Shown here piece after piece: positions 10,515 to 24,637 of a stretch of 28,530 nucleotides of DNA. The position numbers were made by a program, and so were the translations under genes. Position 1 is the stretch's first letter, and every line of letters starts with the position of its first letter. Source of the DNA: a virus; the IMG/VR virus record IMGVR_UViG_3300035703_000349, positions 1 to 28,530 of that record; one strand, written 5' to 3'. The notes under the pieces were generated by a model that saw only the letters and a list, made by a program, of their open reading frames with translations, ran no database searches and was not told where the DNA came from.

Positions 10515-10543
10515 AAAAAAAGGGAGGTTGTTACGCCTCCCTT
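10515..10543 (-). terminator. Rho-independent terminator after the capsid gene
   Basis: Read leftward, an 8-bp stem (AAGGGAGG / CCTCCCTT, 10520-10543) with an 8-nt loop is followed by T6 (10520-10515) and then, without a gap, the ATG of the 95-aa gene. The capsid stop codon lies about 20 bp before the stem. On the + strand the stem is followed by TTCTTTTTA, so it may work in both directions. It would allow high capsid mRNA with lower expression of the genes beyond. Confidence 0.85.
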
Positions 10544-10564
10544 CTTTTTACCACAGTTTATAAC

Positions 10565-20047: not shown

Positions 20048-20121
20048 TTCTTGACCTTCTTAGGTTGCATGGGGATACCCACCTTCCTATCGTATCGAAT
20101 AGGAACCGGAGGAACCTTCAT
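20044..20121 (-). CDS. Tiny ORF (25 aa) coupled at both ends
   Basis: ATG 20121-20119 sits in an ATGA overlap with the stop of the glycosyltransferase gene, and its TGA sits in an ATGA overlap with the start of the Cys-rich gene. The product is basic and Pro-rich (MKVPPVPIRYDRKVGIPMQP, then KKVKK). The exact tiling between two real genes is the main support. It could be a real small protein or only a translational bridge. Confidence 0.5.
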   Translation of the reverse strand: MKVPPVPIRYDRKVGIPMQPKKVKK

Positions 20122-20810
20122 TCGGTAGGGAGATGGTAGTGCCTTGCTATCCCTGGTTCGTTTTTCCACATCCATCGTGAAGCCTCCATGAGGTTTTTAC
20201 GGTCATCCTTGCCGACTGTCTGAGAGCCAGCGTGATGAACGTAAGCCCTTGATACAAAATGCCTAAAGTCTAATACCGTAAGTGTATGACAAAACACATT
20301 ATCTGAGAACCAATTTATCGGCGGGAATCTAACCGCTTGAAAAGCCTCCTTTGATACGTAGGCAAAGATAGGCGCAATAACCGAGGCTTCCCTAATCGTC
20401 TCTTCCTCTACCCATTTCATCCCGTTTCTTGGGCCAGACTCATACCGGATATTCTGGGTGTCTAGAATAAAGTCAGACCTGCAACCAATAACACCCAATT
20501 TATGCCCTGCGTCTTTTAGGTGCTGGACATCCTCACAAAGCAATCTATACGAATCAGGAGTCAGGCATATATCGTCGTTAGCTACTATGACTTCATCGTG
20601 GTACTGGAAGGCATCGTCCATGATCCTGTTGTAAGCGTCACCGAAGTTACTCGACGAATTGAGTACCCATTTGTAAATTCGTGGGTCCATTGTCTCGGAC
20701 CGGCTCGACAGATAAACAGGCGCTTCTTTGGCGTATAGACTGATGCTCGACAGCGCGATTTCAAGGCTTGGCGATCCTGTTGTGCAGATGAGAATCGGTA
20801 ACTTTTTCAT
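20118..20810 (-). CDS. Glycosyltransferase-like protein, GT-A fold (230 aa)
   Basis: Starts MKKLPILICTTGSPSLEIAL at ATG 20810; GGAGGAGT directly upstream decides this start over the longer reading from 20834. Residues 74-82 (VIVANDDIC) carry an NDD/DxD-like motif (78-80), preceded by NFGDAYNRIMDDAF, typical of family-2-type nucleotide-sugar transferases. Later come GCRSDFILDTQN and FSDNVFCHTLTVLDF. The 5' end overlaps the previous glycosyltransferase by about 50 bp. The target is unknown (virion, DNA or host glycan). The pairing of two such genes suggests they act on the same glycan. Confidence 0.7.
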   Translation of the reverse strand: MKKLPILICTTGSPSLEIALSSISLYAKEAPVYLSSRSETMDPRIYKWVLNSSSNFGDAYNRIMDDAFQYHDEVIVANDDICLTPDSYRLLCEDVQHLKDAGHKLGVIGCRSDFILDTQNIRYESGPRNGMKWVEEETIREASVIAPIFAYVSKEAFQAVRFPPINWFSDNVFCHTLTVLDFRHFVSRAYVHHAGSQTVGKDDRKNLMEASRWMWKNEPGIARHYHLPTE

Positions 20811-21459
20811 ACTCCTCCATTCTGTGGCCTGCAACCACCTGAAAGTATTCGTTGTTCATGAGCGACTTATTGCAAACATTAACTTCTAAGCCATGTTCTG
20901 ACGCGACAATCGGGAATGAGAGCTGGTCCTGTAAGCTCCACTTCATCATCTCCTCCCACCATGCTTGGTTGGCTCTAGGATTGATGTAGGACCGCTTCCA
21001 ACAGATAACCCCGCCTGCGATAAGACCGCCGTTCTCAGGCCATCCTAAGTCCCTATAGTGTTCAACCTGAGACAAGATGGGCTGATCCCTGTACTTAATC
21101 ATATCGTGGCACTCTTGGGCTTCTTCGTAAATACAAGTCCTCCAAGGGTGTTGGAACGCTGCCATCGTATCTCCGGCCTGCTCGACCATGTACTCCACAA
21201 ACTTAGCGCTCGTAATCCGTATGGACCCGTCCACCCAGATCACATAATCCTCGTCAAACTCCAACTTGTCAGGAAAGACTTTGTACCACTTAGCTTCCAT
21301 CCTGGGGTCAGAGAACCGTCTCGTGGTTACGATCTGCTTCCAGCCCTGATGAGGTTTAGCCTCGTCAACAATCGCGTAGAAGTTCGTAGGCACGGACTGC
21401 CTGACCGCGTAGTGCAGCGGGTCGTAACTCCCGAAGATGGATGTGTAGACAGCGATCAC
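20761..21459 (-). CDS. DUF616/TOD1-MUCI70-like glycosyltransferase (GTG start)
   Basis: Starting at GTG 21459 the product is MIAVYTSIFGSYDPLHYAVR..., with KWYKVFPDKL (57-66), YVIWVDGSIRI (72-82) and HPWRTCIYEEA (104-114). The 'IAVYTsIFGsYD', 'K..K..P' and 'iWvDgsi' trio is the DUF616 (TOD1/MUCI70) glycosyltransferase signature; D77 would be in the metal/sugar-nucleotide site. The frame is open up to 21492, but that extension runs through a perfect terminator hairpin and is not part of the protein. The GTG abuts the T-tract, so no Shine-Dalgarno site is available. It is the first gene of the late leftward block. Confidence 0.72.
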   Translation of the reverse strand: MIAVYTSIFGSYDPLHYAVRQSVPTNFYAIVDEAKPHQGWKQIVTTRRFSDPRMEAKWYKVFPDKLEFDEDYVIWVDGSIRITSAKFVEYMVEQAGDTMAAFQHPWRTCIYEEAQECHDMIKYRDQPILSQVEHYRDLGWPENGGLIAGGVICWKRSYINPRANQAWWEEMMKWSLQDQLSFPIVASEHGLEVNVCNKSLMNNEYFQVVAGHRMEEYEKVTDSHLHNRIAKP

Positions 21460-21486
21460 AAAAAAAAGCCTGGCATCGCGCCAGGC
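21460..21486 (-). terminator. Rho-independent terminator between early/middle and late leftward genes
   Basis: Read leftward, a perfect 7-bp stem GCCTGGC / GCCAGGC with the 5-nt loop GCGAT is followed by T8 (21467-21460) and directly by the GTG start of the glycosyltransferase gene. It lies about 30 bp after the stop of the 60-aa gene at 21514. It should end most early-operon transcripts, so late genes would depend on antitermination, read-through or a promoter inside the leader. Confidence 0.88.
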
Positions 21487-21513
21487 AAACACAGGAGGAG
21501 TTCCATCGTTAGT

Positions 21514-21696
21514 TTACTCCCCCGTTAGAAAGTTGAGAAGCTCCTCGGCTTGTAGTCGAAGATCGATGCTTGCTTTGTGTAGTTCTACGCTCATGTTGAC
21601 TAAAGCCAAGACTCGTGATTCTAGCTCACTGGAATCCATTGCGTCTTGAATAACGTCTTGAGCAAGTGCTTTGGCTGCTGCTTCATTTAGATTCAT
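21514..21696 (-). CDS. Small helical protein, end of early operon (60 aa)
   Basis: Starts MNLNEAAAKALAQDVIQDAM at ATG 21696 with AGGA 7 bp upstream; the longer reading from 21717 lacks such a site. The rest (SSELESRVLALVNMSVELHK... EELLNFLTGE) is predicted fully helical with a regular hydrophobic spacing. It overlaps the DUF3310 gene by 14 bp. Unknown function. It is the last gene before the terminator at 21460-21486. Confidence 0.65.
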   Translation of the reverse strand: MNLNEAAAKALAQDVIQDAMDSSELESRVLALVNMSVELHKASIDLRLQAEELLNFLTGE

Positions 21697-21895
21697 TACT
21701 GATCCTTTGTATCTCACGGTTGATATACCAGACTGCTTTCTTCAAATCCTCGGTTGCATCTTGAGACTTTAAACCTGCCCGAAGGATGTACTTGATTGCA
21801 TTACCCAGGCAAAAATTCATGTGCTCGGTAATCTCAATCACTTCTATGCCTGATGGATGTGACTTGTAATGAGTTGGGTTTATGGGATCGTTCAT
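21683..21895 (-). CDS. DUF3310 family protein (T7 gp1.7-like)
   Basis: The 70-residue product MNDPINPTHYKSHPSGIEVI, then EITEHMNFCLGNAIKYILRA and DLKKAVWYINREIQRI, is the full DUF3310 signature. T7 gp1.7 belongs to this family and has been described as a nucleotide kinase; many short members consist of this domain only. It probably acts in nucleotide metabolism early in infection. An ATGA overlap joins it to the DUF551-like gene upstream. Confidence 0.88.
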   Translation of the reverse strand: MNDPINPTHYKSHPSGIEVIEITEHMNFCLGNAIKYILRAGLKSQDATEDLKKAVWYINREIQRISNESK

Positions 21896-24227: not shown

Positions 24228-24586
24228 GCTGCCCTCAGCTTCTCTGAGATCCTTGCCTTCCAAGAGTTCCAATCCTCTCCTGGCCTAGCTGGACAATTTA
24301 CCTTTGCCGCCATCTCGGCAGTACCCTTCTCTGTAGCCCACCACACCACAACCTTCTCTTGCGTAGGTGCGATCTCTAGCTCATCTTCCCATCTTCCTTG
24401 GTTCAGCCAGGTAGCAGGATGCGGAATAAACTCCTGACCTGTTCCCTTCACCTGGTAATACTTGTTATGCGTCACCAGAGCCTCTACAGCGGACTTTTGC
24501 TCAGCGGGCGATAGTTTGTTCCATGCCTTCTGTGCAGCGCGTTTAGCGACCTTTCTTGGGTACTTACTCCAAAACTCTTCAAACAT
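24224..24586 (-). CDS. Replication organiser / helicase-loader-like C-terminal domain (120 aa)
   Basis: Begins MFEEFWSKYPRKVAKRAAQK and contains FIPHPATWLNQGRWEDELEI. 'FeeFW..YPrK..k..A.kaW.k' plus 'FiPhPaTWLnqgrWeDe' is the signature of the C-terminal domain of many phage replisome organisers (lambda O/DnaT-like proteins). The usual N-terminal winged-helix half is missing; the gene starts right at this domain, with AGGAGG 4 bp before the ATG, so it is a stand-alone domain. It may work with one of the separate winged-helix proteins of the operon. It is the first gene of the leftward operon. Confidence 0.7.
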   Translation of the reverse strand: MFEEFWSKYPRKVAKRAAQKAWNKLSPAEQKSAVEALVTHNKYYQVKGTGQEFIPHPATWLNQGRWEDELEIAPTQEKVVVWWATEKGTAEMAAKVNCPARPGEDWNSWKARISEKLRAA

Positions 24587-24637
24587 AAAACCTCCTGTGT
24601 TGGAGTTTTTACTGTAGACCTTTTTTTGTTTGTTGAA

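Follow-up and report, generated by a model that had tools for sequence, protein, structure and literature searches.

Why does a terminator-like hairpin at the border between two gene blocks of a phage genome run, without an intervening nucleotide, into the start codon of a glycosyltransferase gene? The window analyzed here, namely the whole stretch of 28,530 b, is an entire IMG/VR virus record from a freshwater phage, which has an SU10-type capsid protein and whose best cultured relative by capsid in the phage collection is the Methylophilales phage Venkman (56% identity). On the minus strand, small early-type genes run from 25400 down to 21514, after which come genes of the glycosyltransferase type and those for a ParB-type DNA methylase, terminase, portal, scaffold, and capsid, and the junction at 21457 forms the border between the early-type block and the glycosyltransferase/structural block; the division into early and late blocks is read from the gene order. 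The second gene past the junction gave no match in Pfam or PHROG.

On the minus strand, the junction reads GCCTGGC-GCGAT-GCCAGGC-T8 and then directly GTG (21459-21457), with the 5' arm at 21486-21480, the loop at 21479-21475, and the 3' arm at 21474-21468 (Table 1). A GC-rich stem directly precedes a U-rich tract, as in intrinsic (Rho-independent) terminators, and the element is thus, judged from its sequence, probably of the intrinsic-terminator type, at which transcription would be expected to end. The sequence agrees with the initial annotation, which had described a perfect hairpin and T8 abutting the GTG of a DUF616-like gene and had asked whether homologues would place the real start elsewhere. 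They instead fixed it at this GTG: 13 near-identical loci retain it, two loci of 87% identity (L095 and L096) share the GTG start although they lack the hairpin, and L114, together with about 30 more loci, carries GCCCGAC...GTTGGGC-N-T7-G(T/C)-ATG with an ATG start at the same place. The start given by the ORF finder (21492), which lies upstream of the hairpin, is therefore not the real one, and a wrong-start artefact was rejected, since homologues with and without the hairpin share the start position. In L095, a U5 tract still adjoins the GTG despite the missing hairpin. In both L095 and L096 the glycosyltransferase gene follows a different upstream gene, and the similarity to the window starts at TTTTTGTG, as though recombination had its limit at the U tract. 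In the flush glycosyltransferase genes, the hairpin and the start codon are not separated by a Shine-Dalgarno (SD) sequence, and resemblance to an SD is confined to the 3' arm of the stem. In T4 gene 25/38 the SD is looped out by a hairpin; such an arrangement was rejected for the window, in which the stem has no SD immediately on its 5' side. In the rnd leader of E. coli, a terminator-like hairpin and U8 precede a UUG start; a literature search for this precedent found nothing usable.

Table 1. Features of the 21457 junction and of the comparison site at 10515.
Feature	Coordinates	Strand	Remarks
Upstream early gene	21514..21717	-	60-67 aa; ends 27 nt 5' of the stem
TTCTCA, -35-like	21534..21539	-	17 nt from TAAACT, inside the upstream gene; weak
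GGGGGAG, SD-like	21517..21523	-	10 nt 5' of the leader ATG
TAAACT, -10-like	21511..21516	-	possible promoter only
16-codon leader ORF MELLLCLPGAMPGFFL	21456..21506	-	spans the hairpin and U tract; TGA overlaps GTG (GTGA)
CTCCTCC box of the leader	21494..21500	-	from the sequence; conserved CTCC box in aligned versions
Terminator hairpin	21468..21486	-	7 perfect pairs, loop GCGAT
U8 tract	21460..21467	-	flush with the start codon; invariant core across 25 versions
Glycosyltransferase gene	20761..21459	-	TOD1_MUCI70 (Pfam; DUF616); true start GTG 21459
Second gene past the junction	20118..20810	-	ATG 20810 preceded by GGAGGAG
Post-capsid hairpin and T7	10515..10541	-	flush with ATG 10514; different element from 21457

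Across 25 distinct versions of the junction, 96.6% of the cells of the 7-bp stem were paired, and four of the seven pairs were changed on both sides. The covariation of the stem (0.467) was three times the shuffled mean (0.154), was reached in 0 of 500 shuffles, and lay far above the slid controls; this covariation indicates that the hairpin matters. As the initial annotation had it, the strand holds two strong terminators (10515 and 21457) according to our detector, both flush with a start. Its further claim that such placement is unlikely by chance stood in part: in dinucleotide shuffles of the strand, the rate of strong terminators was 0.02 per strand and none of 200 shuffles had a flush one, but once a terminator in the gap is given, a flush position is expected by chance at about 4% per site (about 21 and 27 nt being free), so that flushness without conservation is weak evidence.

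The 10515 junction differs from that at 21457 in being a post-capsid hairpin with a purine-rich 5' arm and no leader ORF. The intergenic stretch directly after the capsid gene folded into a GC-rich hairpin in all 78 of 78 related loci (10515-10564 in the window; L002-L081) despite greatly differing sequences (40 distinct versions of the gap, with -13 to -31 kcal/mol), and a strong post-capsid hairpin was also present in Venkman, HTVC106P, phiM5, NV1, MW202879, and MW202711; RHph_I1_23 had no strong one. The U tract and flush ATG were seen only in some clades, others having no U tract and some a normal SD, and in L023 the spacing is opened to 14 nt with AAGG before the ATG. What is constant at this site is therefore the hairpin after the capsid gene, with a flush start as one of its outcomes; moreover, since several clades have no U tract, termination there is not certain everywhere, and a function other than termination, such as protection of the mRNA 3' end, is possible. 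In L017 and L024, imperfect GCTCGTTAAG-type repeats are inserted between the post-capsid terminator and the ATG and thereby provide a natural experiment in which the flush arrangement is lost. On the plus strand of the window (10522-10549), the same hairpin is also a good terminator (AAGGGAGG...CCTCCCTTCTTTTT) and could thus stop antisense transcription. The T7 T-phi terminator lies after capsid gene 10, and the 10515 hairpin is similarly situated directly after the major capsid gene, but it differs from T-phi in that several clades lack a U tract. The glycosyltransferase that had been ascribed to the next gene block was not the next gene, which encodes a phrog_3982 protein; a weak match occurs one gene further.

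About 190 related loci, 1.79 Mb in all, were surveyed and gave 24 clusters of terminator-like sites located behind a gene on the same strand; several of the clusters fall within coding sequence. Flush starts were found mainly at post-capsid and glycosyltransferase junctions, and most other terminators stood at least 10 nt before the start (L171, L144, L161, L191, and L151), usually with an SD-like stretch between. The idea of a general flush switch setting read-through and translation together had to be abandoned on these grounds, flush placement being unusual in the group and 10515 being a different element; a link between read-through and translation is plausible at 21457 through its leader ORF, which the initial annotation had not noticed, but is not a general property of the terminators of this genome. 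The association with glycosyltransferases fared better, the flush layout being conserved at 21457 and recurring before two Pfam families, although not in L204-L212, where a 21457-type element precedes a DUF5856 gene and is separated from its start by 12-14 nt that include AGG. The second family is Gly_transf_sug (Pfam), whose start is flush with a -10-like box, CTCC box, hairpin, and U tract in L067 (T6-C-ATG), L080 and L055 (both T7-ATG), and L078, in which a TTG start is formed from the last Us. A covariance model of the 21457 junction (R1) recovered L080, L055, and L067 at E 0.013-0.024, which is supportive, not decisive.

The leader ORF (ATG GAA CTC CTC CTG TGT TTG CCT GGC GCG ATG CCA GGC TTT TTT TTG TGA) begins at ATG 21506, 8 nt past the stop codon of the upstream gene, and runs through the terminator (21506-21456), as the leader ORF does in pyrBI-type attenuators. 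Its counterparts in relatives have 18-19 codons against 16 in the window. The leader ORFs of L688/L692 (MASSFLSLARLCVGHFFV) and L067 (MTVVSSSTCPPTAGGLFS) end in NTGA on the start, that of L067 on an unrelated glycosyltransferase, and in L662 a 67-codon ORF passes through the hairpin and ends in the same way. In L114-type loci the leader ORF (MKVGSFPSFARRDVGRFFV) ends in ATGA in a different frame relative to the hairpin; the place of the leader ATG and the frame thus differ between the window and the L114 types, whereas the frame always ends on the start. In L095, which has no hairpin, a 60-codon gene is joined to the glycosyltransferase gene by GTGA. The SD-like stretch before the leader ATG is GAGG in L067 and AGGG in L688, and is weak in the L114 type. 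Altogether, five of the seven junction types (window, L114, L688/L692, L662, and L067) have a leader ORF ending on the start, against a background of 19 of 208 starts (9.1%), which corresponds to P of about 1e-4 for at least five of seven if the types were independent; they are so only in part, four of them preceding DUF616 genes. L080 and L055 show the flush layout with the overlapping stop absent (ATGG), and the L078-type loci have leader ORFs with non-ATG starts only. The sequence of the leader peptides is not conserved between lineages, so that any importance of the ORF would lie in its being translated.

From this anatomy and its conservation we infer termination, translation of the leader, and coupling, and we lean, without calling it probable, towards a translation-gated attenuator of the pyrBI type between the early genes and the late operon, which would hand the ribosome over to an SD-poor start. 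RNA polymerase coming from the early genes would usually terminate at the U tract, just before the glycosyltransferase start. If a ribosome reinitiates on the leader ATG behind GGGGGAG and closely trails the polymerase, the hairpin could not fold, the polymerase would read through, and the same ribosome, on arriving at GTGA, would reinitiate on the glycosyltransferase gene. The flush start would then be a consequence of the stop-start overlap that ends a translated terminator, and the 10515 junction would represent a separate post-capsid hairpin rendered flush through compaction. In E. coli experiments, hairpin folding was suppressed by a ribosome within about 10-15 nt (PMC4824070), and since the stop of the upstream gene lies farther from the stem than this (Table 1), the ribosome of that gene would by itself do little to block the hairpin. 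Among closely coupled genes, an NTGA overlap is the most frequent spacing (PMC12548453). The pyrBI terminator sits inside its own leader ORF and is suppressed by a closely following ribosome (PMC4824070), as would be the case here, whereas the 21457 leader is far shorter (16 codons vs 135 bp) and ends in a stop codon that overlaps the next start, the site lies between phage genes, and no UTP-sensing pause tract was identified in it. The lambda tR2/ninA site (W48 construct) offers a phage terminator that has, as here, an AUG close upstream and the stop codon of the ORF opened by it close downstream, but its description has no start codon flush with the U tract (PMC4824070). The -10-like and CTCCTCC boxes are left unexplained by the attenuator model.

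A simpler account, which we consider somewhat unlikely, is that the hairpin is a plain boundary terminator that only ends early or dampens late transcription and was pushed against the start by compactness, because a terminator must stay clear of the upstream stop codon and contact with the next start is not forbidden. In agreement with it, the distances from stop to stem at 21457 (27 nt) and 10515 (about 21 nt) fall in the range of mostly recovered efficiency (PMC4824070), many other terminators of the group are separated from the following start by 8-20 nt, and L095 manages without the hairpin. Such a terminator would, however, explain neither the leader ORFs ending on the start, nor the persistent absence of an SD at the glycosyltransferase starts of two families, nor the conserved CTCC box.

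That box would find a role if a promoter overlapping the upstream stop produced an RNA of about 45 nt, from near CUCCUCC to the U tract; this RNA would be either a small RNA with anti-SD action or a late leader cut short by termination, with read-through feeding the late operon. In the lambda pR'-tR' layout a terminator stands at the head of the late operon, a position shared by the 21457 hairpin, whose promoter is putative and whose leader is far shorter. We regard this reading as unlikely and nevertheless as a serious rival, owing to the spacing of TAAACT and CTCC, the TTGATT-17-TACAAT of L204, and the promoter-box-terminator units found elsewhere, in many phages as well as in Burkholderiales chromosomes. 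TAnA(A/C)T precedes the CTCC box by 8-12 nt in the aligned versions, TAAACT having the counterparts TAAAAT, TAGAAT, and TACAAT in relatives, and both are also present in L662 and L688/L692, where the upstream sequence differs; the L204-L212 element is a fair promoter candidate, and its TACAAT is kept outside coding sequence while the flanks vary. On the other hand, the putative promoter of the window matches sigma-70 at 8/12 positions (9/12 in the L204 type), no convincing -35 was seen in L662 or L688, the -10-like box of L662 is coding, the window has no Rfam match, and no Q-type antiterminator was found among the early proteins scanned, the record being possibly incomplete. Venkman gp37 gave a weak Q-type match only (PF06530, E 0.0086). 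The leader can pair over 11 bp with the SD region of the early gene at 24586, but this target, the best one in the window, is not kept in relatives and this pairing is not the best in L114 or L204, which makes anti-SD pairing to one conserved target less likely. In the window, this SD region (AACACAGGAGG, 24586-24610, minus strand) shows perfect complementarity over 11 nt to the leader at 21500 (CCUCCUGUGUU), with -19.4 kcal/mol. The anti-SD small RNAs alpha-r14/cuckoo (CcsR) share a CUCCUCC-type motif in a short RNA, but consist of three hairpins, each with CCUCCUCCC in its unpaired part (PMC10746234), whereas the 21457 leader has a single CTCCTCC in an unpaired leader.

The promoter-box-terminator units elsewhere include an apparently unregistered RNA element, composed of a GCAGUUGCC box and a terminator, in phages and Burkholderiales chromosomes. 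The pattern TANAAT-N4-22-GCAGTTGCC-N18-45-T7 occurred in at least 120 IMG/VR stretches, and a terminator hairpin preceded the T run in 69 of 80 among the matches listed (27 distinct clusters), compared with 4 of 183 T7 runs without the GCAGTTGCC box in the same loci. Loci with TANAAT, GCAGTTGCC, terminator, and T7/8 include L403-L482, L138, L160, L178, L117, L168, and L524:29590-29643 (minus strand). In several phages the GCAGTTGCC element lies upstream of methylase/terminase genes, and elsewhere no same-strand gene follows it; in L044 and L524 a CTCCTC stretch and GCAGTTGCC are both upstream of late genes. In GTDB genomes, 47 of 80 among the matches listed carried a terminator, 43 of these 47 with a CCAAC/GTTGG first stem and the box in its loop, and the matches were mostly from Burkholderiales (Roseateles, Pelomonas, Rubrivivax, Ideonella, and Aquabacterium). 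A conserved, small-RNA-like locus of Burkholderiales chromosomes, TACAAT-gaaggcCCAACAA-GCAGTTGCC-ATACGTTTTGTTGG-terminator-T8, is found in L527-L606 (e.g., L539:1908-1984, L579, and L595). Rfam 15 gave no family at the GCAGTTGCC-element positions of the loci tested, ten Burkholderiales loci included, and a known RNA family was rejected for the window and the related elements alike, the int-alpA matches lying elsewhere. These int-alpA RNAs (RF02996) occur in phage contigs that also have GCAGTTGCC (L405:1378-1445, L425:3599-3672, and L420:5810-5878). At 21457, CTCCTCC instead of GCAGTTGCC stands between the -10-like box and the terminator, and a hairpin accompanied only 20 of 81 CTCCTCC matches in IMG/VR, which makes the CTCCTCC pattern alone weak. 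It is doubtful that the 21457 leader belongs, as a derived form, to a large and so far unregistered phage class of promoter-box-terminator RNAs (CUCCUC and/or GCAGUUGCC), situated at the head of the late operon with the glycosyltransferase read-through gated by a translated terminator, in which the GCAGUUGCC form would mimic a Burkholderiales small RNA. On this reading, since that form shares its box with the apparent Burkholderiales small RNA, these phages would carry mimics of a host small RNA.

It is very improbable that U8 serves mainly as a landing site of ribosomal protein S1 for an SD-less start, along the lines of the E. coli rnd leader: every flush start lacks an SD outside the stem, L095 retains U5 adjoining its GTG without a hairpin, and A/U-rich sequence likely binding S1 can help coupled starts (PMC12548453), but the stem itself covaries.

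If the translation-gated attenuator is true, the junction would constitute a very small regulatory device, in which a terminator, a mini-ORF, and the following gene's start fit into about 50 nt, and a ribosome on the mini-ORF would control both the early/late read-through and the translation of a sugar-transfer enzyme; it would also account for the misplacement of the glycosyltransferase start by automatic start calling. Possibly of greater consequence than the junction itself is the phage RNA element whose conserved box also occurs in an apparent small RNA of Burkholderiales.
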